Of a DNA stretch of 64,000 bases, positions 1-16,340 are shown in pieces. The DNA is from Amycolatopsis balhimycina FH 1894. GTDB taxonomy: Bacteria; Actinomycetota; Actinomycetes; Mycobacteriales; Pseudonocardiaceae. Both the position numbers and the translations under genes were made by a program. The stretch's first letter is position 1. Every line of letters begins with the position of its first letter. The notes below the pieces were generated by a model. The model was given only the letters and a program-made list of their open reading frames with translations, made no database searches and had not been told where the DNA came from. Location of the stretch: NCBI RefSeq assembly GCF_000384295.1, contig NZ_KB913037.1, positions 9,437,508 to 9,501,507 on the forward strand. Direction: 5' to 3'.

Positions 1-48
1 CGAATCGCGGCGGTGGCCAAGTCTGTCCTTCGTCGGCTGTGCCGGCAT
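1..48 (-). CDS. Possible N-terminus of a divergent gene, perhaps TetR-type regulator (cut by window edge)
   Basis: Sixteen open codons run off the left edge from an ATG at 48; they read MPAQPTKDRLGHRRDS. Basic residues followed by an R-(D/E)-x pattern are common just before the first helix of TetR proteins. The position also fits: the gene would be divergent from a TetX-like monooxygenase, with a tandem palindrome between them, which is the usual arrangement for a TetR repressor and its target. No convincing ribosome binding site is visible, and the piece is too short to prove coding. The TetR assignment is inferred mainly from context. Confidence 0.3.
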   Translation of the reverse strand, partial: MPAQPTKDRLGHRRDS

Positions 49-56
49 GTCACGCT

Positions 57-85
57 ACGACCATGGTCGTCACGACCATGGTCGT
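57..85. promoter_or_regulatory. Tandem palindromic operator
   Basis: The perfect palindrome ACGACCATGGTCGT occurs twice, at 57-70 and 72-85, so the two copies repeat every 15 bp. It lies about 50 bp before the monooxygenase start. Two adjacent palindromes between divergent genes are typical of TetR-family operators. The regulator itself would lie left of the window. Confidence 0.6.
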
Positions 86-133
86 GTACCGTAGGCGGTG
101 AACCCGCCCATCGAGCCAGGGGGCAAATCGACC

Positions 134-1318
134 ATGTCACGACGGACCATCGCCATCGTCGGAGCGGGATTGGCCGGCCTGGTCTGCGCTCGCATCCTGC
201 AGGTGAACGGGATTCCGGTCACCGTGTACGAAAAGGACGACTCTCCGACCGCCCGCCGGCAGGGCGGCTCACTTGACATCCACACCGACGCCGGCCAGGT
301 CGCGCTCAAAGAAGCCAACCTGTACGAGGAGTTCCTGACGAGAACGCACCCGGAGGGCGAGTCGATCCGGGTGCTGGACAAGAACGCGAAGGTGTACATC
401 GATCGGAAGGAACCGAAAGGGGGTAATGGCAGGCCGGAGATCGATCGGAAGGTGCTGCGCCGGCTCTTCGTCGACTCACTCGAAGCCGGCACGATCGCCT
501 GGGGTCGCAAGGTTGTCGCGGCTCGCCCTGCCGGGGGAGGACACGAGCTCGAGTTTTCCGACGGCGGAATCGTGCGCGCGGACCTGGTGGTCGGCGCCGA
601 TGGGGCGTGGTCGAAGGTGCGATCGTTGCTGACCACCGTCACGCCGGAATACGTCGGGATCACCTTGGTTGAATTGCACCTGTCCGATGCGGCTGCAAAA
701 CATCCTGATGCGCTTGCGGTCACGGGTCCGGGAATGCTTTTCGCGCTTTCTGACAACAAGTACATAGGCGGTCACGGCGGCGAGCACATCCAGCTCGGCT
801 GCGCCATCCGCGTACCCGAGGACTGGGCCACCGCCGGCGGCACCGACTGGGACGAACCCGCCGTCGCCCGGGCGGCTCTGCTGCGGGAGTTTCGTGATTG
901 GGCACCCACGCTGACGAATCTGATCCGCGACAGCGACGACACGTTCTGGGTGCGCCCGCTCTACGCGCTGCCGACCGGTCACACGTGGAAGCGCGTGCCC
1001 GGTGTGACGCTCATCGGCGACGCCGCGCACTTGATGTCACCATTCGCCGGTGAGGGTGCCAATATGGCGATGATCGACGGTGCCGACCTCGCTCGCGCGA
1101 TCATCGAGGAACCTGACCTCGGCTCCGCCTTGGCTGCTTACGAAAAGAAGATGTTTCCCCGTGGCGCGAAGGCGGCTGCGTCCTCGCAGAAGGGTCTGGA
1201 CACCATGTTCGTCGATGGGCCGCCGCGAAAGCTCGTGGCGTTCTTTCGTGGCATGATCGTTTTTTCCCGTGTGATCCGGCCGTTCGAGCGCTTCTTCGCC
1301 GGAGGGAAGGCATCGTGA
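134..1318 (+). CDS. TetX-like FAD-dependent monooxygenase
   Basis: A 394-residue flavoprotein of the aromatic hydroxylase/TetX class, using NAD(P)H and oxygen to hydroxylate a small, usually cyclic, substrate. The Rossmann motif GAGLAGL lies near the N-terminus, the middle motif GADGAW follows, and the second FAD motif LIGDAAHLMSPFAGEGANMA is near the C-terminal third. The ATG at 134 is chosen over an in-frame ATG at 98 because a purine-rich stretch (AGGGGG) lies just before it and the protein then starts directly with the FAD fold. The upstream palindromes suggest repression by a TetR protein. The substrate is unknown; family members inactivate tetracyclines or rifamycins, but some act in catabolism. 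Whether it belongs to the peptide cluster downstream is unclear because about 440 bp separate them. Confidence 0.85.
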   Translation: MSRRTIAIVGAGLAGLVCARILQVNGIPVTVYEKDDSPTARRQGGSLDIHTDAGQVALKEANLYEEFLTRTHPEGESIRVLDKNAKVYIDRKEPKGGNGRPEIDRKVLRRLFVDSLEAGTIAWGRKVVAARPAGGGHELEFSDGGIVRADLVVGADGAWSKVRSLLTTVTPEYVGITLVELHLSDAAAKHPDALAVTGPGMLFALSDNKYIGGHGGEHIQLGCAIRVPEDWATAGGTDWDEPAVARAALLREFRDWAPTLTNLIRDSDDTFWVRPLYALPTGHTWKRVPGVTLIGDAAHLMSPFAGEGANMAMIDGADLARAIIEEPDLGSALAAYEKKMFPRGAKAAASSQKGLDTMFVDGPPRKLVAFFRGMIVFSRVIRPFERFFAGGKAS

Positions 1319-1754
1319 GTTTGCGTTGGCTCGAGTAGTGTCGAATACCGGCTGACGGATCATGTCGTCGCACGCTCGTGCTACGTCGAGGCCCCGGAAT
1401 GGTCACCTCGTCGACCTGTTGGCCGATCGTCAGTAACACCGGCGCGACCACCTCCACCGCGTTCATCGAGGCGCTCGGACGCCGCTGTTCCTCTCCGAAC
1501 ACACCGAGCTGCCGGCACTCAAGACGACTCTGCCGGCCGGACCGACCGGGCCGTCGATCGTCCGTGTCCCACGGGAACTCCCTCCGTCGCGTTTCGTGGC
1601 TGAACCGAGGAAACCAGCGCGCCCCGGGCACCGGTGGGCCAGAGCGCGCACTCCGGGAGACGTGCGCCGACGGGCCGGGGCGGCAGCATCGGGACGTGCC
1701 GGCGGGTAGCGCCGTACGTCGGATCCGGCACTGCACAGCGACGAGAGGTCCGCG
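1319..1754. other. Intergenic stretch, possible degraded coding remnant
   Basis: No intact gene is seen. On the plus strand two frames join into protein-like text (…TSTAFIEALG, then TPLFLSEHTELPALKTTLP… near 1,450-1,590), which would need a frameshift. I do not recognise the family. The last 60 bases carry the ribosome binding site of the next gene. Confidence 0.3.
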
Positions 1755-3128
1755 ATGGAGAGAACGAAGTTCCAGCTCGACGAGTCCCAGATTCCGAGCA
1801 CCTGGTACAACATCGCCGCCGACCTGCCCGGCGCGCCGATGGCACCCGCGCTCAACCCCGCGACCGGGAAACCGCTGACTCGCGACGAAATGGGCGCGAC
1901 GATGCCGGAGCCCATCATCGACCAGGAGCTGAGCACCGAACGGGACATCGAGATCCCCGAGGCGGTGCGGCAGCTCTACACGCAGTGGCGGCCCAGCCCG
2001 CTCTACCGCGCGCGGCGGCTCGAGCAGGCCCTCGGCACCCCGGCTCGCATCTACTACAAGTACGAGGGTGTCGCGCCGTCCGGGAGCCACAAGCCGAACA
2101 CCGGGATCCCGCAGGCCTACTACAACAAGCAAGCCGGCAAGACCGGCCTGATCACCGAGACCGGCGCCGGGCAGTGGGGCAGCGCGACCGCCCTGTCGGC
2201 CGCGCTCTTCGGGCTGACCGCCAAGGTGTTCATGGTCAAGGTGAGTTTCCAGCAGAAGCCCTACCGCCGGGCCCTGATGGAGTCATACGGCGCGACCTGC
2301 ATCCCCAGCCCGAGCCCGGAAACCGCGGTGGGCCGGGCGATCCTGGCCAAGAACCCCGACTCTCCCGGCAGCCTCGGCATCGCCACCTCGGAAGCACTCG
2401 AGACCGCGGCCACCGACCCGTCGCTCGGCTACGTGCTCGGCAGCGCCGCGAACCACGTGCTGCTGCACCAGACCGTCATCGGGCAGGAAGCCCTGCTGCA
2501 GATGGAACTCGCCGGGGACTACCCGGACGTCATCGTCGGCTGCTCCGGTGGTGGCAGCAACCTCGCCGGGCTGACGTTCCCGTTCATCGGCGCGCAGTTG
2601 CGCGGTGGGCCGGCCGTACGCGTGCTGGCCGTCGAGCCGGCCGCCTGCCCCACACTGACCCGCGGGACGATCGCTTACGACTACGCCGACACCGGACGGC
2701 TCGGGCCGCTGTTCCGGATGCACACGCTGGGCCACGAGTTCATGCCGCCGCCCGTGCACGCCGGCGGCCTGCGCGCGCACGGCATCGGCCCGCTGGTCAG
2801 CCGTGCGGTCGAGGACAAGCTGATCGAGCCGATCGCGGTCGGGCAGACCGGGTGCTTCGAGGCGGGCGTGCAGTTCGCCCGCACCGAAGGGATCCTGCCC
2901 GCGCCGGAGTCGACACACGCGATCCGCAGTGCCATCGACGAGGCTCTGCGCTGCCGGGCCGAAGGCGTCGGCCGGACCATCCTTTTCGGACTGTCCGGGC
3001 ACGGGCACTTCGACCTCGTCGCCTACGACAAGTACTTCGCCGGCACGCTCGAGGACGACGTCGTCAACGAGGAGCAGCTCGACATCGCCGCCGCGTCGAT
3101 CCCGAAGCCGGCCGGAGCCACGTCGTGA
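1755..3128 (+). CDS. TrpB-like (TrpB2-type) PLP-dependent enzyme
   Basis: A 457-residue fold-type II PLP enzyme related to the tryptophan synthase beta chain, closest in style to TrpB2. Lys113 in SGSHKPN is the expected Schiff-base lysine; ETGAGQWG (Glu135) corresponds to the catalytic glutamate loop, with Trp where classical TrpB has His; SGGGSN at 264-269 binds the phosphate. It has no TrpA partner nearby. The ATG follows a GAGAGG site. The gene overlaps the next one (GTGA), an ATP-grasp ligase, so it probably starts an operon. In this setting it likely makes a non-standard beta-substituted alanine or another amino acid used as a building block, rather than housekeeping tryptophan; that role is inference from neighbours. 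Confidence 0.85.
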   Translation: MERTKFQLDESQIPSTWYNIAADLPGAPMAPALNPATGKPLTRDEMGATMPEPIIDQELSTERDIEIPEAVRQLYTQWRPSPLYRARRLEQALGTPARIYYKYEGVAPSGSHKPNTGIPQAYYNKQAGKTGLITETGAGQWGSATALSAALFGLTAKVFMVKVSFQQKPYRRALMESYGATCIPSPSPETAVGRAILAKNPDSPGSLGIATSEALETAATDPSLGYVLGSAANHVLLHQTVIGQEALLQMELAGDYPDVIVGCSGGGSNLAGLTFPFIGAQLRGGPAVRVLAVEPAACPTLTRGTIAYDYADTGRLGPLFRMHTLGHEFMPPPVHAGGLRAHGIGPLVSRAVEDKLIEPIAVGQTGCFEAGVQFARTEGILPAPESTHAIRSAIDEALRCRAEGVGRTILFGLSGHGHFDLVAYDKYFAGTLEDDVVNEEQLDIAAASIPKPAGATS

Positions 3129-4351
3129 GAGTGGCGGTCGTCGACGCCGACGGCATAGCGGCGCACCTGCCGGCGGCGCTGGCCGCGCACGGCCTGGAAA
3201 CGGTGCGTGTCCGGTCCGAGTCGCCGGACGTGCACCTGACCGGGTCCGCGGCGGCCGACGTCCGGCACCGCGGCGACGTCGCCGTGACCGCGGACGCGTT
3301 GCGGCGCCGCGACGTCGGGTTCGTGCTCGCCGGGACCGAGTCCGGCGTGCTGCTCGCCGACGAGCTGTCGGCGGCGCTGGGCACGCCGGGCAACGGGATG
3401 ACCCGGCCACGGGCACGGCGGGACAAGTTCGAGATGGTGACAGCGGTGCGCGAGGCCGGCCTGGCCACCGCCGCGTCGTTCGCTTCGCCGTCCGCGGACG
3501 AGGTCGTCGCGTGGGCGGTCGCGCTGGGCACCTGGCCTGTCGTGCTGAAGCCGCCGGCCAGCGCGGGCAGCGACAACGTCCGGATCTGCGGATCGGTGGA
3601 CGAGGTGCGCGCCGGGCACGCCGCGATCCTGGCCGCCACCACGCGCTACGGCTCACGCAACGAAACCGTGCTGGCGCAGGAGTACCTGCACGGCGACGAG
3701 TACTTCGTGAACACGGTGAGCCGGGACGGGGCACACCACGTCGTCGAGGTGTGGCGCTACCACAAGCGCGCTCTCGACGGCGGCCATTGGATGTACGACT
3801 ACGAGCAGCCGGTGCCGCTGGACGAGCCGCGCCTGTCGGACCTGGCCGGCTACACGCTGGACGTCCTGAACGCGCTCGAACTCCGCAACGGCGCCGGGCA
3901 CACCGAGGTGATGCTCACCGCGGCCGGCCCGGTGCTCGTCGAGTCCGGGGCGCGGATGGGCGGATCGCACCAGCCGTCGGTGGTGTCGCGGTGCATCGGG
4001 ACCAACCAGGTCGAGTGCCTGGCGCTGGCGGTCGCGCGGCCCGAAGAGGTCACCGAACGGCGGCTGCCGACCTACCGGCCCCGGTCGTTCCTCCGCTACG
4101 TCACGTTGATCAGCCCCGGCGACGGCGTGGTGCCGGACGAAGCCGGGTTCGCCGTGGTGCGGGCGCTGCCGTCGTTCGTGGATCTGGTGCTGACCACGCC
4201 GGCCGGGCGACCGGTCGGGCGGACGGTCGACCTCGCCACGTCGGTGGGCTACGTCTACTTGGATTCGGCCGACCCGGAGCAGGTGGAGTCGGACTACAAG
4301 CAGCTGCGCGAGTACGAACTGAACGGGCTCTACACAGATGAGGCGGTGTGA
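3125..4351 (+). CDS. ATP-grasp amino acid/peptide ligase
   Basis: A 408-residue ATP-grasp protein. The GTG at 3125 overlaps the stop of the TrpB-like gene, indicating translational coupling. Visible ATP-grasp features are the central lysine strand WPVVLKPPASAGSDNV, the adenine-binding stretch LAQEYLHGDEYFVN, and the metal-binding region HTEVMLTAAGPVLVESGARMGG. Family members activate a carboxylate as acyl phosphate and couple it to an amine; the closest architectural relatives by eye are BacD-type L-amino acid ligases, which make dipeptides. Its partner is probably the product of the preceding enzyme. A second ATP-grasp enzyme is encoded at the end of the convergent operon, so two ligation steps are plausible. 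Substrates cannot be read from sequence. Confidence 0.85.
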   Translation: MRVAVVDADGIAAHLPAALAAHGLETVRVRSESPDVHLTGSAAADVRHRGDVAVTADALRRRDVGFVLAGTESGVLLADELSAALGTPGNGMTRPRARRDKFEMVTAVREAGLATAASFASPSADEVVAWAVALGTWPVVLKPPASAGSDNVRICGSVDEVRAGHAAILAATTRYGSRNETVLAQEYLHGDEYFVNTVSRDGAHHVVEVWRYHKRALDGGHWMYDYEQPVPLDEPRLSDLAGYTLDVLNALELRNGAGHTEVMLTAAGPVLVESGARMGGSHQPSVVSRCIGTNQVECLALAVARPEEVTERRLPTYRPRSFLRYVTLISPGDGVVPDEAGFAVVRALPSFVDLVLTTPAGRPVGRTVDLATSVGYVYLDSADPEQVESDYKQLREYELNGLYTDEAV

Positions 4352-4355
4352 CCAG

Positions 4356-4865
4356 GTGACCAAGGCGATCACGGAACTCAGCGAGCTGGCGGACATCCCG
4401 GCGGAGTGGGTGCACGTCGAGAAGCGCATCCACCCGGGCGATGACCTTCGGCTGCCGGGTGCGTACCTGAAGTGGTACGACATCCGCGAGGTCGGCGAGC
4501 CGGCCGCGCCGGCGATCAGCGAGCAGGCCCGGCAGTACCTGCGCGACCAGGCGGAGGCGGGCGAGCTGGAGTTCCGGAACGAGCTCGGCTACGCGATGCT
4601 CCACCACGACGGCGGCTATTACCTGATCGTCGGCCTGTGGCGCAAGGACGAACTCTGGACGGGCATCTTCTTCTTGGACGGCGACGAGTTCAAGCGCTAC
4701 CCGGCCAAGCCGGGCGCGTTCCGCGCGACGCAGAACGTGGTCGAGCTGGACGCGACGGCCCACGAGCGCCGTGCCTGGGCCCGCTTCCTGCGCACGGACC
4801 GCGACGACGCCGCCAAGCGCGCGTATATCGAGGACTACTGCACCGGAGTCGTCGGGGTGCCGTGA
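4356..4865 (+). CDS. Unknown protein, third gene of the TrpB/ATP-grasp operon
   Basis: A soluble protein of about 169 residues with no recognised domain. It is rich in charged and aromatic residues (LPGAYLKWYDI, HHDGGYYLIVGLWRKDELWTGIFFLDGDEF), suggesting a compact alpha/beta fold. The GTG at 4356, four bases after the preceding stop, is preferred because GAGGCGG lies at a good distance; an in-frame ATG at 4338 would overlap the ligase gene but has no ribosome binding site. Immediate coupling to the two biosynthetic genes suggests a role in the same pathway (tailoring, cyclisation or immunity), but nothing in the sequence decides this. Confidence 0.75.
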   Translation: MTKAITELSELADIPAEWVHVEKRIHPGDDLRLPGAYLKWYDIREVGEPAAPAISEQARQYLRDQAEAGELEFRNELGYAMLHHDGGYYLIVGLWRKDELWTGIFFLDGDEFKRYPAKPGAFRATQNVVELDATAHERRAWARFLRTDRDDAAKRAYIEDYCTGVVGVP

Positions 4866-4908
4866 CCCGCGCCCGGGAGCCTGCCACCCCGAAGCCGGAA
4901 TTGTGACT

Positions 4909-4968
4909 ACGGACGGCAGTACCGGGTCAAGGCGGGAAAGCGTGCCTTGACCCGGTACTGCCGTCCGT
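4909..4968. terminator. Strong bidirectional hairpin, 25-bp perfect stem
   Basis: Arms at 4909-4933 and 4944-4968 are perfectly complementary around a 10-base loop. There is no U-tract, as is common in high-GC actinobacteria. It ends the plus-strand operon and can serve the convergent one. Confidence 0.7.
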
Positions 4969-5118
4969 GTTTCGGCTTCGTATCGGGGTTGCGGGGAAGG
5001 TCTGGGTGATCCGGGGGAAGGTTGTCCCTCGGCGTGCCGTTCACGCCGGGCGCACGAAAGCGCTGCCCGCCAAGCGAAGGCGGCAGCCCAGCCGGCAGAC
5101 CGTCGTCCGTGCGAAGGC

Positions 5119-5148
5119 CCCCCGGTGCCGCCGAAGCGACACCGGGGG
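5119..5148. terminator. Hairpin after the second ATP-grasp gene
   Basis: CCCCCGGTG at 5119-5127 pairs with CACCGGGGG at 5140-5148 around a 12-base loop. It lies 12 bases after the minus-strand stop at 5161 and probably terminates that operon. Confidence 0.6.
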
Positions 5149-5160
5149 CCGGCCATGACC

Positions 5161-6408
5161 TCAGGACTCGACGGGCCGCGTCCGGACCTTGATGTCGCCT
5201 ACCCGGGCCCGGCTGAACTCGATCGCCGCTGTGGTGCCGGCTGCCCGGACCGCCACGTGGCCCAGGCCGTCCCAGGAGCCGTCCAGTGACCTCACCACGT
5301 CGCCCGGGGCCGCTCCCCCCAGGTCCACCGCCAGCGTTGCCGGGTCCGCCGCCACGGCCTCCACGCCGGCGATCTCCAGGATCTCGCCCGGCTCCGCCAC
5401 CGCCAGCCAGCTCGCCGCCGCTCCCCGGGCCGGCAGGGCCGCCACCACCGGGGCCACCGAACCATGGGGCCATTTCATCGTCAGCTCGTGCATGTCGATG
5501 CCGTGTACCTCGTGGACCATCTCGTTGATCAGCGCGCCGCCGATGCGGTTCTGGGACTCGATCACGACCGGGCCGCGGGGGCTCAGCTTGAACTCCGTGT
5601 GGCTCGGGCCGTCCGTGTACTCCAACGCGTCCAGGAACGCCGGGATCATCCGCTCCACCGCGGCCACGTCCGCGGCGGACAGGCGGGCCGGGATCGCGTG
5701 GCCCGCGTGGACGACCGTTCCCTCGAGCGTGACCGCTTCGGTGATCGCCAGCACCGTGTGGCGGCCGGCGAACGAGAACGCCTCCGCGCTGTACAGCGTT
5801 CCGTCGACGTACTCCTCCAGCACGTACTCGTCCAGGTCGTACTGGCCGAGGAACGGATGCTCCGGCACGTCGCGCTCACACGAGACCGCCTCGAAGACCG
5901 GATCGACGTCGTCCGGGCCGTCGACGCGGTGGACGCCGAAACTCGCGGTGCCCGCGCCCGGCTTCACGATGAACGGGTAGCCGTGACGTGCGCCGAACTC
6001 CGTCAGGCTGTCGCGGCCGGCGAGGACCGCCGCGCCGATCACCGGGACGTCCGGGGACGCCACCTCCGCGATCCGGCGGCGCATCACGTTCTTGTCGGTG
6101 AACCGGTGGCTCACCTCGTACGACGGGCCGCCGAGGCCGAGCAGGTCCCGGACCCGCCCGGCCGGGTCGAGGCCCGGCTCGGTCAGCGAAACGACCGTCG
6201 TGAACCCCCACGCCCGGTGCGCTGCCCGCACGAGCGGGCGGAACGTCGCCCAGTCCGTGTAGTCGGCCAGGATCGCGCCCACCACCTGCGGGCCGTATTC
6301 CGGCTTGAACTCGCCCGGGTTCTGGCAGTAGACGACTTCGAGGCCGGCCGCCTTCGCCGCCTGGAAGTGCTTGGGGTTCCCGCCGATCAGCAGGATGCGT
6401 GGTGCCAT
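5161..6408 (-). CDS. ATP-grasp ligase (second)
   Basis: A 415-residue ATP-grasp carboxylate-amine ligase. ATP-binding features are the lysine strand YPFIVKPGAGTASFGVH, the loop YVLEEYVDGTLYSAEAFSF, and the metal-binding block SHTEFKLSPRGPVVIESQNRIGG. The N-terminus MAPRILLIGGN is a typical pre-ATP-grasp nucleotide-like domain. I chose ATG 6408 because AGGAG lies ten bases upstream; an in-frame GTG at 6420 would sit directly on that site. It is the last gene of the minus-strand operon, 22 bases after the exporter gene. With the ATP-grasp gene at 3125 it suggests at least two ATP-dependent amide bonds, consistent with a small modified peptide. It resembles dipeptide ligases more than D-Ala ligases or carboxylases. 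Confidence 0.82.
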   Translation of the reverse strand: MAPRILLIGGNPKHFQAAKAAGLEVVYCQNPGEFKPEYGPQVVGAILADYTDWATFRPLVRAAHRAWGFTTVVSLTEPGLDPAGRVRDLLGLGGPSYEVSHRFTDKNVMRRRIAEVASPDVPVIGAAVLAGRDSLTEFGARHGYPFIVKPGAGTASFGVHRVDGPDDVDPVFEAVSCERDVPEHPFLGQYDLDEYVLEEYVDGTLYSAEAFSFAGRHTVLAITEAVTLEGTVVHAGHAIPARLSAADVAAVERMIPAFLDALEYTDGPSHTEFKLSPRGPVVIESQNRIGGALINEMVHEVHGIDMHELTMKWPHGSVAPVVAALPARGAAASWLAVAEPGEILEIAGVEAVAADPATLAVDLGGAAPGDVVRSLDGSWDGLGHVAVRAAGTTAAIEFSRARVGDIKVRTRPVES

Positions 6409-6430
6409 TTCGCCGGTCACTCCTGAACGC

Positions 6431-7732
6431 TCAGACGGGCTCGGGTTCGGGTTCGGGCCGCACCGGTTCGGGTTCCGCGGGCTCCGGCTTCGTGGCGCGG
6501 ACCGACGGCAGGCAAAGGCACAGCACGCCGCCGGCGACGCAGGCCAGGCCCGACAGCGCGACCACCTGCGACGCGCCGAAGTGCTCCAGCAGCAGGCCGC
6601 CGAGCGCCGCGCCGGTCGGCGAGGACGCGACGATCACCGAGCGCCGGGCGCCGAACACCGCGCCGTACTGCTCGGCCGTCACCGCGTTCTGGATGACGCT
6701 GATCTCCGTGGACGCGTACGGCGCCCAGACGAACCCGCCGACGAACATGATCACCAGCGCGAGTGGGAGCGTGTGCACGAACACCAGCGGCAGCAGGATG
6801 AGCCCCCACACCGCGGCGCCGACCGCGTTGACCACCGCCGGGCGGAAGCGGGCCAGCCGCGGCACCATCACCAGGCCGAGCAGTGCGCCGACGCCCATCG
6901 CCGACCACATCGCGCCGTAGCCCGCGCCACCGGCGCCGAGGTTCTGCTGGGAGAACACCGGGATCGCGGTCAGCAGCGGGCCGTAGGACAGGAAGTAGAT
7001 GACCGTCAGGATCATCATCGCGCGGACCACCGGCACGGTGATCAGCGGACCGAATCCGGCGACGAAGCTGTTCTTGGCCTTCTTCGGCGGTCCCGAGGGC
7101 ACCGGCGGGGCCACGGCCGGGTTCACCCGCACGCCGAGCACCAGCGCCGTCGCGACCAGGCACATGATCGCCGGGATGAACAGCGACCAGATCCCGATGA
7201 AGCCGGCGAGCGAACCGCCGAGGATCGGGCCGACGAGGTAGGGGAACTGGTCGCCGATGGTCAGGACGCCGTTCGCCACCTGCAGCTCGCGGCGCGGGAT
7301 GAGCAGCGGCGTGATGACGCGGGTGCCGACCTTGGCCAGCGGGTTCGTGACGCCCATGACCAGGCACAGCCCCAGCACCACCGGGATGCTGAACGTGCCG
7401 ACGACCGACAGCAGCGCGATCCCGCCGATCGCGATCCCGCGGACGGCGAAGCCGATCGCGGTCAGCCGCACCGGCGACCAGCGGTCGAACCACGCGCCGA
7501 GCAGCGGGCCCGACACGATCTCGGGGGCCCGGCGGAACAGCACCGCCAAGCCGGCGAGTGCGGGCGACCCGGTCTCCACCAGCACGATCCAGATCAGGGC
7601 GACGGAGGCGAACTCGTCGGCCGTTTCCGACAGCAGGCTGCTCATGGTGAGCTTGCCCAGGCCCGGGAACCGGCCCAGCACCGACCGCTGCCACCGCTCC
7701 CGGACGAATCCGGGCGCCAGGTCCACCATCAC
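6431..7732 (-). CDS. MFS efflux transporter
   Basis: A 433-residue membrane protein with about twelve hydrophobic segments and the basic loop GAWFDRWSPVRLTAIGF between segments 2 and 3 typical of the drug:proton antiporter group of the major facilitator superfamily. The C-terminus is an unusual proline-glutamate tail (PEPAEPEPVRPEPEPEPV) that probably lies in the cytosol. Its place between the transglutaminase-like gene and an ATP-grasp gene of the same operon suggests that it exports the cluster product and gives self-resistance. This role is inferred from position; the substrate is not readable from sequence. Alternative ATGs lie at the first two codons, with little effect on the protein. 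Confidence 0.82.
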   Translation of the reverse strand: MMVDLAPGFVRERWQRSVLGRFPGLGKLTMSSLLSETADEFASVALIWIVLVETGSPALAGLAVLFRRAPEIVSGPLLGAWFDRWSPVRLTAIGFAVRGIAIGGIALLSVVGTFSIPVVLGLCLVMGVTNPLAKVGTRVITPLLIPRRELQVANGVLTIGDQFPYLVGPILGGSLAGFIGIWSLFIPAIMCLVATALVLGVRVNPAVAPPVPSGPPKKAKNSFVAGFGPLITVPVVRAMMILTVIYFLSYGPLLTAIPVFSQQNLGAGGAGYGAMWSAMGVGALLGLVMVPRLARFRPAVVNAVGAAVWGLILLPLVFVHTLPLALVIMFVGGFVWAPYASTEISVIQNAVTAEQYGAVFGARRSVIVASSPTGAALGGLLLEHFGASQVVALSGLACVAGGVLCLCLPSVRATKPEPAEPEPVRPEPEPEPV

Positions 7733-7817
7733 TGCCCCTTTCCGATCCGCCGCCGCGGCCGCGGTCCACCATCCTCCCGGGCGGCCGCGGACCGCATCTC
7801 CCGCAGTGCCCGGCCGG

Positions 7818-8525
7818 TTACGCGGCCTTGCCGAGCGCGTCGCCGGTCTCGTCGGCCGCCTCCGCGATCAGCGAACCCTGGGCCGTTTCGTAACGGCCGG
7901 CGAACAACGCCGGGTGTGCCGACCGGATGCCCCCGACGACGAGCTCGTACGGGAAGTCGTCGAAGTCGCCGTAGTCGTGGAGGAACTCCATGTACCGGCG
8001 GCCCTTGCTGTCGTACGGGTGCGACATGCTGTCGGCGGTGCCGTCGAACTCGAGCGGCGTGATGCCGTAGAGCCGGCACAGCAGCTTGTTGAACACCGGC
8101 GTCGCGCGGACCCACCTGCCGTCCAGGTACACCGAGTTCAGCGCGTGGAAGCGGAACACGTCGCCGCCGACCAGCTCGCGCAGCCGCGGCGACGCGAGGT
8201 GGTTGCGGACGTCGGTGAGCGCGATCCGGCTCGGCACGCCCGCCGCGCGGCACACCGCGGCGTACACGATGGACTTGTGCACGCAGAACCCGCGGCCGCG
8301 CTCGATGATCGAACTGGCTTTGAGGCCGGTGCGGCTCAGCGCCGCGCCGTAGACCTCGTAGTGCAGCTTGTCGCGGACCGCGTAGTACAGCGCGACCGCC
8401 TTCTCGGTCGGCGTGGTTTCCGTGCCGTCGAGCACCTGCCCGGCGAACTCCCGCACGACCGGGTGGTCGTGATCGAGGAACGGGGTGACCCCGAGCAGGT
8501 CCTGGGGAGGCGTGTCGGCCACCAT
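7818..8525 (-). CDS. Transglutaminase-like cysteine enzyme
   Basis: A 235-residue protein of the transglutaminase-like superfamily. The nucleophile motif GRGFCVHKS places Cys81 at the start of a helix, and His127 in FHALNSVYLDGRW fits the catalytic histidine. The usual Asp after the Trp is replaced: the strand reads VRATPVFN, with Thr142 at the expected place, so the third catalytic residue must be elsewhere or absent. The ATG follows AAGGA. In andrimid biosynthesis a transglutaminase homologue (AdmF) forms an amide from carrier-protein-bound acyl groups. A similar job is attractive here, moving the oxidised aminoacyl group from the carrier protein onto an amine, because the adenylation, carrier and dehydrogenase genes lie just upstream. 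That role is inference. Confidence 0.75.
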   Translation of the reverse strand: MVADTPPQDLLGVTPFLDHDHPVVREFAGQVLDGTETTPTEKAVALYYAVRDKLHYEVYGAALSRTGLKASSIIERGRGFCVHKSIVYAAVCRAAGVPSRIALTDVRNHLASPRLRELVGGDVFRFHALNSVYLDGRWVRATPVFNKLLCRLYGITPLEFDGTADSMSHPYDSKGRRYMEFLHDYGDFDDFPYELVVGGIRSAHPALFAGRYETAQGSLIAEAADETGDALGKAA

Positions 8526-8554
8526 TTCGTCCTTCTTCCGGTTTCCGGCGCCTG

Positions 8555-9697
8555 TCAGCGCACTCCGAGCATTCTGGCGACCTTGTCCCGCTGGACCTCC
8601 GACGTTCCGGAGTAGATCGTGCCGCCGGTGGCGTCGCGCAGTTCCTTCTCGATCCCGAACTCGCTGAGATAGCCCCGGCCGCCGAAGATCTGCACGGCGT
8701 TGGTGGCGGATCGGACGTTCGCCTCGCTGGCCAGGACCTTCGCCATGGCCACGTCGACCATCACGTCCTCGCCGGCTGCGAACCGCTTCGCGGTGTCGTA
8801 GAACCAGTTGCGGGTGGTCTCCAGGTCGATCTTCATCTCGACGATCTTTTCCGCGATCAGCTGGCACGACGCTATCGGCGCCCCGAACTGCTTGCGGCTC
8901 TTCGCGTATTCGATGCTCTGCTCCAGGCGGTACGCCATGGCGCCGAGGCTGATCGCGAAGGAGAGGAGCACCTCCCACTTCATCACGTAGTCGAGCAGCA
9001 GGAAGCCCTTGCCCCGGCGGCCGACCATGTTCGCCGCGGGCACCACGCAGCCGGTGAACGTCAGGTTTCCCAGCGGCGACGTGCGCAGGCCCATCTTGTC
9101 GATCGGCGGCCCGGCTTCGAAGCCGGGTGTGCCCTTCTCGACGGCGAACACGCTGATGCCGAGCGGGCCGGTGCCCGGTGACGTCCGGGCGTAGACCAGG
9201 ACGACGTCGGCCACCGGGCCGTTGGTGATGAAGAACTTCCGGCCGTTGAGGACGTAGTCGTCGCCCCGGCGTTCGGCGGTGGTCTGCATGGCGGCCGCGT
9301 CGGAACCGCCGTGCGGCTCAGTGATCGCGTGCGCGCAGATCACCGAGCCGTCGCAGACCCGGGGGAGCAGCCGGTGCTTCAGCTCCTCGGTGCCATACCG
9401 GTGGATCGGCACGCCGGTGCTGACGAGCTGCGTCGAGATCGAGAAGCTGAGCCCGCCGTCACGGCAGTGGTACCCGAGACCCTCCAGCACGTGCATGGTC
9501 GTCGGCAGGTCGTGCCCACCGCCGCCGTACCCGGTGCCGAACGGCAGGCCGAACAGGCCCGTCGCGCCGATCTCCGGCCAGAGCCCGCCCGGGAACTCCG
9601 CTTCGCGGTCCCGGCGGAGGTGGTCGGCGCCCCAGGCCCGGAAGGCTTCGGTGTAGCCGTCCCGCAGCGCCTGCTGCTTGTCGGTCCACTGCTGCAT
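8555..9697 (-). CDS. PltE/RedW-like acyl-CoA dehydrogenase acting on a carrier-bound aminoacyl group
   Basis: A 380-residue flavin dehydrogenase with the full acyl-CoA dehydrogenase fold: AHAITEPHGGSDAAAM (FAD/substrate contact), YAKSRKQFG in the C-terminal helical domain, and IFGGRGYLSEFGIEKELRD. The usual IYEGT motif holding the catalytic glutamate of short- and medium-chain enzymes is IYSGTSEVQR, with Ser363 in its place. This is the pattern of PltE-type enzymes that oxidise prolyl-carrier protein to the pyrrole. The adenylation and carrier genes two and three places upstream complete the same trio. I therefore expect a carrier-bound aminoacyl thioester as substrate and a dehydro amino acid or heteroaromatic product. 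The stop of the cupin gene lies 15 bases before the ATG. Confidence 0.82.
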   Translation of the reverse strand: MQQWTDKQQALRDGYTEAFRAWGADHLRRDREAEFPGGLWPEIGATGLFGLPFGTGYGGGGHDLPTTMHVLEGLGYHCRDGGLSFSISTQLVSTGVPIHRYGTEELKHRLLPRVCDGSVICAHAITEPHGGSDAAAMQTTAERRGDDYVLNGRKFFITNGPVADVVLVYARTSPGTGPLGISVFAVEKGTPGFEAGPPIDKMGLRTSPLGNLTFTGCVVPAANMVGRRGKGFLLLDYVMKWEVLLSFAISLGAMAYRLEQSIEYAKSRKQFGAPIASCQLIAEKIVEMKIDLETTRNWFYDTAKRFAAGEDVMVDVAMAKVLASEANVRSATNAVQIFGGRGYLSEFGIEKELRDATGGTIYSGTSEVQRDKVARMLGVR

Positions 9698-9712
9698 CGG
9701 GGGAACTCCGGC

Positions 9713-10087
9713 TCAGTCGTAGTAGGAGTATTCGTCGTCGAGGTTGTGCGACTCGTCGCCGATGAGCGCGGGCGTGAACATGCAAACCAGCACCATGTCC
9801 TGGTCCGGCGACGCGATCAGGTGGTGCGGGTCGTGCTTGTCGAGGGCATAGAGCGTGCCGGCCTCGATCACGTGCTCGTCGCCCGCGGAGTCGATGACCT
9901 TGCCGCTGCCGGCGATGCAGTAGCACGCCTCGAGGTGGTTCCGGTACTCCAGCGCCGAGTCGGTGCCGGCGCGGACGATCGTGTGCGTGACCGTGTAGCC
10001 CATGCCGTCCTTGAGGGTCAGGAAGCGGTGGCTCAGGCCGTTGCCCCATTCGACGCCCGCGGTCTCCGAAAGTTTGCGGATGATCAC
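9713..10087 (-). CDS. Ectoine synthase (EctC)-like cupin
   Basis: A 124-residue cupin that closely follows EctC along its whole length: KDGMGYTVTHT, YRNHLEACYCIAGSGKV, GTLYALDKHDPHHL and VCMFTPALIGDE. The metal-binding residues known for EctC (Glu57, Tyr85, His93 in the Paenibacillus enzyme) have counterparts at Glu53, Tyr80 and His88. EctC closes N-acetyl-diaminobutyrate into the cyclic amidine ectoine. No ectA, ectB or ectD is present; the gene sits four bases after the carrier-protein stop. GTG 10087 is chosen because it gives the canonical EctC N-terminus. A reasonable inference is ring closure of an amide and an amine in the peptide product, giving a tetrahydropyrimidine or another cyclic amidine; a water-adding or other cupin activity remains possible. 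Confidence 0.82.
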   Translation of the reverse strand: MIIRKLSETAGVEWGNGLSHRFLTLKDGMGYTVTHTIVRAGTDSALEYRNHLEACYCIAGSGKVIDSAGDEHVIEAGTLYALDKHDPHHLIASPDQDMVLVCMFTPALIGDESHNLDDEYSYYD

Positions 10088-10091
10088 GGTG

Positions 10092-10376
10092 TCAGGCCGG
10101 CTTTCCCAGGTAGGCCACATCGGACGAGCTCGACGCCGAGTGCGTCTCGACGAACCGGGAGATCGAGGTGATGGAGGTGAAGTCCTGCTCGACGATCTCG
10201 ACCTCCTCCATCGGGATCTCGAACGTGGCCTCGAGCCAGGTGACCACGCGCAGCAGGCCGAGGCTGTCGATGACGCCGTTGGCGCGCAGGTCGTAGTCGG
10301 CCTCGAGCTCCTCCGGGCCGACGCCCGGCAGGAACTCCTCGAGGACGTATTGCTTGATCTGCTCGGAACAACTCAT
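10092..10376 (-). CDS. Stand-alone peptidyl/acyl carrier protein
   Basis: A 94-residue acidic carrier protein. The phosphopantetheine attachment site is Ser38 in NGVIDSLGLLRVV, matching the DSL core. Its size and sequence style resemble PltL-type single carrier proteins used with a free adenylation enzyme. It lies one base after the adenylation gene and four bases before the EctC-like gene, so the three are translated together. It must be activated by a phosphopantetheinyl transferase encoded elsewhere. The C-terminal tail (SASSSSDVAYLGKPA) looks disordered. Confidence 0.88.
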   Translation of the reverse strand: MSCSEQIKQYVLEEFLPGVGPEELEADYDLRANGVIDSLGLLRVVTWLEATFEIPMEEVEIVEQDFTSITSISRFVETHSASSSSDVAYLGKPA

Positions 10377-10377
10377 G

Positions 10378-11892
10378 TCAGCTCCCGTTCAACAGGTTTC
10401 GGATGACGGCTTTGCGGTCGGTCTTGCCCGTCGACGTCGTCGGCAGCGGGTCGTCCACGACGCGGATCGTGGTGGGCAGCGCCGCCCGCGCCAGGCGCTC
10501 GCGGCAGAACTGGCGCAGCCCGAGCACGCCGAGCGGTTCGGTCGTGTCGCGGCGGACGACCGCGTGGATGGCCAGCCCGGCCACGTCGTCGGGCACCGCG
10601 ACCACGGCCGCGCCGGCGATCCGCTCGTGGCCGAGCAGAACCTGCTCGATCTCCTCGAGGTTCACCCGTACGCCGCGGACCTTGACCTGGGAGTCGGTGC
10701 GCCCGACGAGGGTGAACACGCCGTCTGCGGCACGCTCGACGAGGTCACCGGACCGGAAGTAGACGCGGCCGCCGCCGCGTTCCACGAACTTGCCCGCCTC
10801 GCCGCCGACCGCGTACCCGGCCGTCTGGAACGGCGTCGACACGAGCAGCTCGCCGGTGGCCGGGCCGTCGGCGACCTCGCCGGCGGCGTCGAGCACGAGC
10901 GCGTCGACGCCGGGCAGCGGGCGGCCGATCGGGAGCGGGCCGTCTCCCCGGAGGTCGGCCGCGGTGATCTCGTGGATGAAACTGTCGTTGGTCTCGGTGG
11001 CGCCGTAGATGTTGTGGAAGCGCGCGTTCGGGAACAGCCGCGGGAGCTCGGGCAGCAGCTTCGCCGGCATCTTGTCGCCGGTGACGATCACGTGCTTGAC
11101 GGACTCGAACGGCCGGCCGTCGTGGACGTCGGCGAGCAGCCGGTAGAGCATCGGGACCGACTGGACGACCTCGACGCCCTCGGAGCGGATCACTTCGGCG
11201 AGGTGCTTGCCATGGGTGGCCTTTTCCGGCTCGACCAGCACCGCCGTGCCGCCGGCCTTGAACGTGGCGCGGATGTCGAGCAGGCACAGGTCGAAGTTGA
11301 ACGGCGCGTAGTTGAGCACCACCGTGCCGGGGCGCAGCCGGAACTTCGTCACCGCCCACTCGGTGAAGCGCTCGACGGCCTGGAAGCTCAGCGGCACCAC
11401 CTTGGGCAGGCCGGTGGAGCCGGAGGTGGTGAAGATGAACGAGGTGGCGTCCGGGCTGACGTCCGGGCCGGTGATGCCGTCGAGCCCGGCGAGGTCGCCG
11501 TCCGGCGGGACCGCGGTGGTGTCGATCTTGTGGATCCGCCGGCCGCCGACGCCGGCGACGGGTTCGGCGGTCAGCACGTCGGTGCAGCCGGCCTTCTCCA
11601 GCAGCGCTTCCAGCGCCGTGGCGCCGAGCTCGGTGGAGGGCAGCATGAACTGACGACGCGCCAGCAGGCAGGCCACGATGAGCGCGACCGTGCGCGGGGT
11701 CTTCGCGGCGTGCACCGCGACGCGGGCATCGGCCGGCAGCCGCATCGCCGAGAGGCCCTCATAGGCCGACATGGTCATGGCGCACACTTCGGCGTAGGAC
11801 ACCCGGACATCGCCCAGCACCAGTGCGGCCGACTCCGGCCGGGTGCGGGCGAAGTCGGCCAGGCAGCCGAGCAGCGAACGCGAATACGGCAC
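10378..11892 (-). CDS. Stand-alone amino acid adenylation enzyme
   Basis: A 504-residue ANL-superfamily enzyme that would activate an amino acid as the adenylate and load the neighbouring carrier protein. The P-loop TSGSTGLPKVV, the core YGATETN, SGDLVERAADG and the catalytic lysine motif TSTGKTDRKA are present. The aspartate that binds the alpha-amino group is present in FNFDLCLLDI. Hand alignment to the GrsA pocket gives roughly D-L-L-S-I-T-I-D-S. The first three residues match known prolyl-activating enzymes, but the rest does not (those read about D-L-L-Y-L-A-L-V-C), so the substrate may not be proline. GTG 11892, preceded by GGAG, is chosen; in-frame codons upstream run into the hairpin region. 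First gene of a seven-gene operon. Confidence 0.85.
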   Translation of the reverse strand: MPYSRSLLGCLADFARTRPESAALVLGDVRVSYAEVCAMTMSAYEGLSAMRLPADARVAVHAAKTPRTVALIVACLLARRQFMLPSTELGATALEALLEKAGCTDVLTAEPVAGVGGRRIHKIDTTAVPPDGDLAGLDGITGPDVSPDATSFIFTTSGSTGLPKVVPLSFQAVERFTEWAVTKFRLRPGTVVLNYAPFNFDLCLLDIRATFKAGGTAVLVEPEKATHGKHLAEVIRSEGVEVVQSVPMLYRLLADVHDGRPFESVKHVIVTGDKMPAKLLPELPRLFPNARFHNIYGATETNDSFIHEITAADLRGDGPLPIGRPLPGVDALVLDAAGEVADGPATGELLVSTPFQTAGYAVGGEAGKFVERGGGRVYFRSGDLVERAADGVFTLVGRTDSQVKVRGVRVNLEEIEQVLLGHERIAGAAVVAVPDDVAGLAIHAVVRRDTTEPLGVLGLRQFCRERLARAALPTTIRVVDDPLPTTSTGKTDRKAVIRNLLNGS

Positions 11893-11957
11893 AATGGTCT
11901 CCAACCCCGGCCGGGCGCGGCGACCACCGTCGCGCGCCGGCCAGTCACCCCAGCTCC

Positions 11958-12010
11958 CCACGCGGAGCCCGGCCCGGACTCCGGCGGTGCCCGGGCCGGG
12001 CTCCGCGTGG
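11958..12010. terminator. Perfect 20-bp hairpin upstream of the adenylation gene
   Basis: Arms 11958-11977 and 11991-12010 pair perfectly around 13 bases. It lies 66 bp before the adenylation start. It may block read-through from the AfsR-like gene at 13171-16173, or form a leader structure for the biosynthetic operon. The remaining part of 11893-12395 shows no gene that I can support. Confidence 0.5.
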
Positions 12011-12395
12011 ACTCCACGGTAGCTTCGTCCCGGAGCGACTGGCTTCTCGCGCAGTGCGGCTCCCGATCAGCCGATCGGCGTCCCCTGTGGACGGTCCGGC
12101 CATGACTCCCAGCGCCACAGCCGCCCGGTGCCCTGATCGTCGACGCGTTGATCAAGGTGTTCGGATCGGCACGGCGCAGGTAGCGGGCCTCGACGGAGCA
12201 GACGGGGGACCGGGCGGTGGCCGGCTCGGCGGCGGTTGCGATCGGTACCGCGGTGATGACTCTGTGTGGATTGTGTGTCGAGATCACCTGATCCGGCGAC
12301 GTCCGCCGCGCGGTCACAACCCGGCTGCAACCGGGGTGCGGTACGCATGCCGGGTGGCGCGCTCCACCGCGGGCCCGGACGCAAGGGGGACTCCG

Positions 12396-13187
12396 ATGAG
12401 AACAGCGGTGCTCGCAGCGGTCGTGCTCTTGCTCGGCCCAGGAACGGCGGTGCCCACGGGCGCGGTGGCCCCTGGCTGTGGGCCCGCGTCGGTGGCGGTC
12501 GCCGACCGGACGCTCTACGAGGGCACCCCGGCCGCCGGGGAGCGCAGCCCGGCCTACACCACCTTCGAGTTCACCGTGTCCGTCACGGCGGCCGCGGGGT
12601 GCGCGCCGACCGGCTCGGTCGCCTACAAGACCGAGGACGGCTCACCCGGCGCGACCACCCCGGACGACTACGTTCCCGCCGAGGGACGGCTGAGCTGGAC
12701 CGGTGACTCCAGTTCGCGCACCATCGCCGTCCAGGTCGTGAAGGACGCCGCCGCGGAGCCGAACGAGCCGTTCCTGCTGCGCCTGTCCGATCCGGTCGGC
12801 CTGGTCCTGGCCGACGACCTGGCCGCGGGCGGGATCCTCGACGACGACGGCGGCGTCGGGCTCCCGATCATGGTCTCCACCGACGGCGGCAAGATCTGCT
12901 GGCACGTCTGCACGGTCGGGGTGCAGCTCGGCGGCGGCCCGGCCAAGGCGCCGGTCACCGTGCACTACCGGACCTTGGCCCTCGGCACCGGCGAACCGGC
13001 GTACGTGCCGGTCAAGGACGCGATGGTGACGATCCCGCCCGGCGCGTCCGGCGGCAGTGCCGTGGTCAAACTGCTGGACGGCAATCCCGGCCAGACCGAA
13101 TCCCGGTTCGTGCTGGAGCTGTTCGCCCCGTCGGCCGGCACGCTGGGGAACGCGCGGACGGAGGTGACGATCAAGCCCGGCGGTTAG
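12396..13187 (+). CDS. Secreted Calx-beta domain protein
   Basis: A 263-residue exported protein. A short signal peptide (MRTAVLAAVVLLLGPGTAVPTGAVA) is followed by a Calx-beta-type region: TPDDYVPAEGRLSWTGDSSS and RTIAVQVVKDAAAEPNEPF, then FLLRLSDP and ILDDDG, which is the usual signature of this calcium-binding beta-sandwich. A second, weaker beta-rich unit follows with the same layout (YVPVKDAMVTIPPG, FVLELFAPSAG). The ATG follows AAGGGGGA. Its last 17 bases overlap the end of the convergent regulator gene. The role is likely extracellular adhesion or a structural function; no catalytic residues are seen. Confidence 0.8.
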   Translation: MRTAVLAAVVLLLGPGTAVPTGAVAPGCGPASVAVADRTLYEGTPAAGERSPAYTTFEFTVSVTAAAGCAPTGSVAYKTEDGSPGATTPDDYVPAEGRLSWTGDSSSRTIAVQVVKDAAAEPNEPFLLRLSDPVGLVLADDLAAGGILDDDGGVGLPIMVSTDGGKICWHVCTVGVQLGGGPAKAPVTVHYRTLALGTGEPAYVPVKDAMVTIPPGASGGSAVVKLLDGNPGQTESRFVLELFAPSAGTLGNARTEVTIKPGG

Positions 13188-16173: not shown

Positions 16174-16340
16174 CCCCGCTCCTTCCCGCGCGGAACCACC
16201 GCTCAGCGAGCGTAACCAGCGCGAAGGAGGGCGAAAACAGCCAACCAGCCGATCCGCGCGGGGATCGACAACCGGTTCACAACCGGTCGCGGTGACGCTC
16301 GGTTCGGAGTTCCTGTTCCGACTCGTGTGAGGAAAACCGG

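Follow-up and report, generated by a model that had tools for sequence, protein, structure and literature searches.

In a review that covers showdomycin, cyclisation of L-glutamine is ascribed, as a proposal, to SdmE; the cyclised compound is activated by SdmC and carried by SdmD, with oxidation and hydrolysis following; SdmA then C-glycosylates the base, SdmB dephosphorylates the product, and non-enzymatic steps lead to the maleimide (PMC8724604). Here this pathway is compared with a set of ten genes from Amycolatopsis balhimycina FH 1894, located in a stretch of 64,000 nucleotides (the window, meaning the whole of the DNA analysed). In this set, a carrier-protein branch is combined with a TrpB-like enzyme, two ATP-grasp ligases and a protein of 169 amino acids (aa). 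By its gene content, the carrier branch (adenylation enzyme, carrier protein, EctC-like cyclase, PltE-like dehydrogenase and transglutaminase-like enzyme; hereafter the module) is a widespread module of a known, base-forming type and is not new, while what appears to be new is its pairing with the TrpB-like enzyme, the ATP-grasps and the 169-aa protein. The overall reading that we favour, and consider probable, is that an aminopyrrole of the showdomycin type would be coupled to serine by the TrpB-like enzyme and incorporated into a peptide by the ATP-grasps. No description of the whole combination was found in the open-access literature, in line with what the first-pass annotation had claimed, although this is a weak negative since subscription journals mostly lie outside it.

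With the sdm cluster of Streptomyces showdoensis, the resemblance lies, by gene content and order, in a glutamine-derived aminopyrrole carboxylate obtained via a stand-alone adenylation enzyme, a carrier protein, a cyclase, an oxidation and a hydrolysis. The difference is that the window has the TrpB-like enzyme, the two ATP-grasps and the 169-aa protein in place of a C-glycosynthase and a HAD phosphatase; no YeiN-like C-glycosynthase or HAD phosphatase was detected in window positions 1-16500 at the tblastn thresholds used for scoring loci. We take SdmE to be EctC-like and the sdm hydrolase to be transglutaminase-like. Prolyl-carrier pyrrole pathways (those of PltE, PigA, RedW and AnaB, all pyrrole-forming) likewise use an adenylation enzyme, a carrier and a flavin dehydrogenase to reach a pyrrole-type ring, but the window adds an EctC-like cyclase, and its PltE-like protein scores below the cut-offs of the PigA (338.9 bits, cut-off 500) and RedW (337.8 bits, cut-off 650) models and of the L-prolyl-carrier dehydrogenase equivalog NF045652 (337.8 of 650 bits). 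Despite these scores, it may work like an L-prolyl-carrier dehydrogenase. In dapdiamide biosynthesis, too, an ATP-grasp couples a reactive, non-proteinogenic amino acid with a second amino acid; the window differs from it in its warhead route and in its ATP-grasp A, which scores 183.2 bits with the dapdiamide synthase DdaF model NF041595, far below the cut-off of 840.

The ten-gene locus

All ten genes listed by the first-pass annotation were confirmed, with family scans in agreement, in two convergent groups of three genes on the plus strand and seven on the minus strand. The cluster had been placed at 1755..11892, where it indeed lies, except that 11892 falls inside the adenylation gene, which starts at 11961 (or possibly 72 bases further in). 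The genes are as follows:

1755..3128, plus strand: TrpB2-like pyridoxal phosphate enzyme (TIGR01415 570.8 bits, cut-off 518.85; NF009057 667, cut-off 366)
3125..4351, plus strand: ATP-grasp ligase A (PF13535; NF005543 336.9, cut-off 302)
4356..4865, plus strand: 169-aa protein without assigned family (first listed as 175 aa, start 4338)
5161..6420, minus strand: ATP-grasp ligase B (PF13535, PF18603, PF18130)
6431..7732, minus strand: major facilitator superfamily (MFS) exporter (PF07690)
7818..8525, minus strand: transglutaminase-like enzyme (PF01841)
8555..9697, minus strand: PltE/PigA/AnaB-like acyl-carrier dehydrogenase, a flavoenzyme (best solved relative prolyl-ACP dehydrogenase 4irn, 305 bits)
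9713..10084, minus strand: EctC-like cyclase, a cupin (PF06339 114 bits, cut-off 27)
10092..10376, minus strand: stand-alone carrier protein (PF00550)
10378..11961, minus strand: stand-alone adenylation enzyme (PF00501/PF13193)

The GTG start of ATP-grasp A overlaps the TrpB stop. None of the ten proteins contains a condensation or ketosynthase Pfam domain (E 0.001), which supports the earlier description of a peptide-type cluster without modular nonribosomal peptide synthetase or polyketide synthase. A Pfam scan of the ten genes revealed no ectA or ectB neighbours of the EctC-like gene and no acetyltransferase or diaminobutyrate gene, and there is no TrpA gene among them. At E 0.001 the 169-aa protein matches neither a Pfam nor an NCBIfam family. 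It has 36 homologues; W, Y, D, R, E and H residues are invariant among 26 aligned sequences, and its AlphaFold model (predicted local distance difference test 89.8) lacks a clear fold match in the PDB.

The borders of the locus were deduced from Amycolatopsis sp. A133 (L007) and A. pretoriensis (L008), with which the window shares ~90% DNA identity over 1563/1632-4872/4879 and 5160/5174-12135, and not beyond. Since this conservation stops just outside the ten genes, they form the unit, without either flank. For lack of DNA conservation in the same two strains, a SARP-type regulator (13171-16173) and an FAD (flavin adenine dinucleotide) monooxygenase (98-1318) were rejected as members. The homologues of the 169-aa protein were then used to ask for co-occurrence, taking one genome per species, which gave 21 loci. 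That the two operons travel together had been set beforehand as a point on which the proposal could fail, and they do: TrpB, the 169-aa gene and all five module genes occur together in 12 of these 21 loci (L007-L017 and L021). Among the 13 loci with a 169-aa match of at least 46%, TrpB and the whole module are present in 12, and the thirteenth, L026, is a broken copy. Eight of the remaining nine loci have a distant homologue (36-42%) and none of the set, apart from weak matches to general families. Chance grouping is excluded, because the DNA is conserved in two Amycolatopsis strains and the gene set recurs in 12 loci, and the 169-aa protein belongs to the core of the cluster. The unit is rare in the genus, the 169-aa protein being present in 3 of 80 Amycolatopsis-genus genomes (source genome included).

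The convergent layout of the window is also found in L007 and L008. The genes of seven Streptomycetaceae loci and L015 form a single-strand run (adenylation-carrier-EctC-PltE-transglutaminase-TrpB-ATP-grasp A-169 aa), and TrpB lies upstream in L016 and L017. The L026 locus (Streptomyces samsunensis, 8693-10410) contains broken pieces of the adenylation gene, of ATP-grasp A and of the 169-aa gene, with best segments 48-60% identical to the 169-aa protein, and is apparently a decaying copy of the cluster. A perfect 25-bp hairpin with a 10-base loop lies between the convergent operons (window 4909-4968). It occurs in imperfect hairpin form at two further places in the genome, and is not conserved in L007/L008; two single arms with 3 mismatches found elsewhere in the genome are no more than a control yields.

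Distribution of the module and its second stages

The first-pass annotation had considered the carrier branch uncommon and undescribed, which does not hold. The EctC of L014 was used as query against 391 Streptomycetales genomes (E <=1e-30), giving 50 places in 47 genomes. Two of these were already known (L009 and L014), and the 48 others were fetched and their genes scored by tblastn. Of the 50 places, 46 hold four or all five of the module genes, in 44 of the 391 genomes, and the gene content matches that of a showdomycin-type module. The second stages joined to it were classified into families assigned from one or two examples each. A C-glycosynthase (PF04227) with a HAD phosphatase accompanies the module at 7 of the 50 places (L083, L085-L088, L119, L125), and the gene content of these fits the published showdomycin steps. 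TrpD-like and TrpA-like genes are found at 21 places (L089, L090, L092, L095, L096, L099, L101, L103, L107, L110-L115, L117, L118, L124, L126-L128), 20 of them with a TrpF-like gene too; ring closure at a free pyrrole carbon could make TrpC needless there and give a fused bicyclic ring. An EutA/arylmalonate-decarboxylase-like protein, of a fold that maleate isomerases also have, is encoded at 15 places (L091, L093, L097, L098, L102, L104-L106, L108, L109, L116, L120-L123), and TrpB with the 169-aa protein at 4. One place (L081, 2312-10904) has the module without any of these second stages, together with UbiD, UbiX, a relative of flavin reductases and a styrene-monooxygenase-like enzyme, a gene set for which an enzymatic route from the aminopyrrole to an oxidised ring is possible.

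The name showdomycin is also given to a cluster used as a reference for similarity, and one report has a different strain matching it at 52% (PMC8303363). For S. griseofuscus DSM 40191, the strain of L014, the accessible part of the genome paper reports 29 biosynthetic gene clusters of unknown product and does not mention showdomycin (PMC8443760).

Within the genus, L139 (genome G077) has module proteins 83-91% identical to those of the window, and the DNA match stops at window position 7856, inside the transglutaminase gene; the remainder of the cluster was not found in the 19 kb examined. The source genome itself carries a second pair of EctC-like and adenylation genes (L028, 10644-12403, in the C1:8272643 region) with the same pocket code as the module.

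Conserved residues and the predicted route

The adenylation pocket was read by setting the GrsA register by hand on the alignment, in GrsA numbering. The code D[LV][LF]Q.T.DSK is found in 56 of 57 aligned sequences spanning all second-stage types, the exception being DLLQMSIDSK (rows below 200 bits, L094 and L100, were left out, and one genome is counted twice, as L010 and L084). Because of this common code, the adenylation enzymes of all types probably activate one substrate. In the EctC-like proteins, the iron ligands Glu57, Tyr84 and His92 are kept in 62 of 62, as in canonical ectoine synthase. They differ from it in Trp21, which in 61 of 62 sits three positions ahead of its canonical place (only L100, which does not belong to the module, departs from this), and the ten genes of the window include no ectA or ectB neighbour. 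Position 38, a substrate contact in P. lautus according to the source that also gives the iron ligands (PMC6344544), is Cys, Thr or Ala in 62 of 62 and Asn in P. lautus. The more canonical EctC of the source genome (L003) has a His there, given which position 38 alone is weak evidence. Four EctCs named ectoine synthase, from Micrococcus, Corynebacterium, Brachybacterium and Brevibacterium (P0251, P0259, P0262, P0273), carry the module-type Trp shift and position 38, and their name may be wrong.

An alternative is that the carrier branch makes another heterocycle, for instance a pyrimidine from acylated diaminobutyrate, with the likeness to showdomycin lying in the names of the parts only. Canonical EctC does act on N-acetyl-diaminobutyrate, but the same source also reports ring closure of glutamine by an EctC as a side activity (PMC6344544), and glutamine is likewise the proposed starting point of showdomycin biosynthesis (PMC8724604). 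The adenylation substrate is a prediction from sequence only, which leaves some room for this alternative, yet the single pocket code includes the C-glycosynthase type and the ten genes hold no acetyltransferase or diaminobutyrate gene. We consider another heterocycle quite improbable, and the ectoine-like pyrimidine from diaminobutyrate was rejected, as there is no acyltransferase among the ten genes and the pocket matches that of the C-glycosynthase-type clusters.

Formation of an aminopyrrole carboxylate from glutamine is retained as the first stage; it is well supported by gene content and, in our judgement, very likely. Glutamine, whether free or attached to the carrier, would be closed by the EctC-like enzyme into a cyclic amidine with a five-membered ring, and the adenylation enzyme and the carrier protein would hold this amidine as a thioester. 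The PltE-like enzyme would then aromatise it to the 5-aminopyrrole-2-carboxyl (2-amino-1H-pyrrole-5-carboxyl) group, and the transglutaminase-like enzyme would release the carrier-bound ring by hydrolysis. Among the residues expected for these steps, the following are conserved: the carrier Ser in the window and 12 cluster members, a Glu in 31 of 31 PltE-like rows, presumably the catalytic base, and the Cys and His of the transglutaminase-like enzyme in 28 of 28 rows (window, 12 cluster members and 15 further loci), with Thr in place of the Asp of the usual Cys/His/Asp triad. The cyclic amidine predicted by the first-pass annotation thus keeps its place as an EctC-homologue step, but is more likely an intermediate than a part of the product.

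It had also been proposed that the product has a dehydrogenated or heteroaromatic acyl cap. A PltE-homologue step leading to a heteroaromatic ring stands, but this ring more probably ends up as a side chain, in an amino acid that the TrpB-like enzyme forms. Were it a cap, the transglutaminase-like protein would act as an amide synthase, moving the carrier-bound ring to an amine, e.g. 2,3-diaminopropionate made by the TrpB-like enzyme, and ATP-grasp A would add an amino acid as in the dapdiamides. Transglutaminase folds are able to make amides, AdmF of andrimid being a transglutaminase-type amide synthase, and ATP-grasp A is related to DdaF. However, a transglutaminase-like gene of the same family is present in 7 of 7 C-glycosynthase-type places, where no amine acceptor is evident, and for this reason the side chain is the likelier position; the same gene is present in 15 of 15 EutA-type places, again with no evident acceptor. 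The TrpB-like enzyme moreover retains the TrpB catalytic Glu, and another locus, L140 (described below), groups TrpB with TrpD-, TrpA- and TrpF-like genes, which points to the ring as a nucleophile. The cap is, on balance, unlikely.

In the second stage, instead of ribose addition by a C-glycosynthase, the TrpB-like enzyme would couple the pyrrole, through its nucleophilic carbon, to the aminoacrylate formed from serine, and an aminopyrrolyl-alanine would result. We regard this coupling as somewhat favoured. The window TrpB, a member of the TrpB2 family by its score above the TIGR01415 cut-off, keeps the catalytic Lys, Glu (ETGAGQWG) and Arg (GGLR). It differs from that family in having no TrpA among the ten genes and in its pocket, where it and each of the 12 cluster TrpBs aligned with it read GGLRA, versus GLRY/H/F in 5 TrpB2 paralogues. 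The cluster TrpBs form one clade (14 rows, support 100/100) apart from 14 TrpB paralogues of the same genomes. Membership of the tryptophan synthase beta family, with the catalytic residues conserved, is what one would also see if the gene were a tryptophan-supply or self-resistance copy outside the pathway. Against this stand the separate clade, the pocket change and the presence of TrpB inside the gene set in 12 of 12 cluster loci, and we hold such a copy to be very improbable. In five of six non-Amycolatopsis hosts checked (L009, L012, L013, L014, L016) the only other TrpB is 35-37% identical (E 1e-20), and because it is so distant, the cluster TrpB is not the main tryptophan supply of these five Streptomyces-family hosts; the sixth genome (L015) has two other TrpBs at 56% and one at 34%.

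After coupling to serine, the ring would shed its carboxyl and amino groups and be oxidised to a maleimide, as happens in showdomycin. This step, which we put forward tentatively, would yield maleimidyl-alanine, an analogue of glutamine that is cyclic and bears a Michael acceptor. One or two ATP-grasps would then add amino acids to give a di- or tripeptide, which is likely, and the MFS protein would export it. In 6 of the 9 Streptomycetaceae loci 3-methylaspartate is a probable addition. Genes for the glutamate mutase large subunit are present in these six, out of 12 cluster loci, which suggests 3-methylaspartate as a building block there. MutE genes were seen in L009, L010, L011, L013, L014, L021 and L082, and MutS where checked (L009, L013, L082). 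A glutamate mutase was rejected for the cluster of the window, being absent from the ten genes, and the source genome (G000) has only a 39% relative elsewhere; genome G040 has three relatives at 32-36% and G065 none.

Several points weigh against this reading as a whole. The TrpB nucleophile, the attacked carbon and the maleimide oxidation are deduced, and the likeness to showdomycin (adjoining adenylation, carrier, cyclase, oxidising enzyme and hydrolase genes) comes from gene content. As for the order of cyclisation, the review proposes that it precedes loading (PMC8724604), whereas the changes at substrate-contact positions could indicate that the substrate is bound to the carrier. The module is missing at 2 of the 50 EctC places (L094 and L100), where the adenylation code differs (DFYHATMRVK), and at L028 the other module genes were not found in 19.9 kb around the EctC/adenylation pair. 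A transglutaminase-like gene is present in only 4 of 21 TrpD/TrpA-type places, where release may use something else. ATP-grasp A is found in 10 of the 12 cluster loci, and ATP-grasp B in 7 at the tblastn thresholds used (the L011 stretch stops before its place); no ATP-grasp was found in the examined stretches of L016 and L017, and the peptide step may not be universal. Finally, neither in the tree of the PltE-like proteins nor in that of the transglutaminase-like proteins does the group of the window come together with all the TrpB-type clusters of Streptomyces. The starred branches permit a single origin of the pairing, but 3 and 2 changes are required on the best trees, and 0 of 200 bootstrap trees show one origin. 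Module and peptide stage may, on these trees, have been joined more than once.

A possible link to tryptophan biosynthesis

A locus in another genome of the same genus (L140, 5436-16618, genome G058) has the order adenylation-carrier-TrpD-like-TrpA-like-EctC-PltE-transglutaminase-TrpB (66%)-TrpF-like, after which come UbiD, UbiX and a flavin reductase. Its TrpB retains GGLRY, and no TrpC was seen in this near-complete tryptophan-type branch. HudA, a UbiD enzyme, is known to decarboxylate pyrrole-2-carboxylate (PMC7976604). The layouts of L140 and L081 are easiest to understand if the aminopyrrole carboxylate comes from the module and tryptophan-type enzymes treat it as a stand-in for anthranilate or indole. 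A wider and more speculative proposal, which we offer as a possibility rather than an expectation, is a shadow tryptophan pathway of actinobacteria acting on aminopyrrole, with TrpD, TrpF, TrpA and TrpB paralogues in varied combinations. In the window, TrpB alone would give aminopyrrolyl- or maleimidyl-alanine, a glutamine-mimicking Michael acceptor carried in di- or tripeptides made by the ATP-grasps; once taken up, these would attack enzymes that use glutamine. On chemical reasoning only, glutamine-dependent enzymes would be natural targets, because maleimidyl-alanine would resemble glutamine with a Michael acceptor.

The base-forming module of a known antibiotic thus appears as a common plug-in. 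The second stages combined with it are of at least four kinds, of which two were drawn from tryptophan biosynthesis, and what was an oddity in a parts list becomes a testable chemical hypothesis. If it is true, peptides containing a maleimide amino acid are predicted, a warhead class of which no description was found in the open-access literature, and the second stages would provide a guide for sorting clusters otherwise filed under showdomycin or ectoine.

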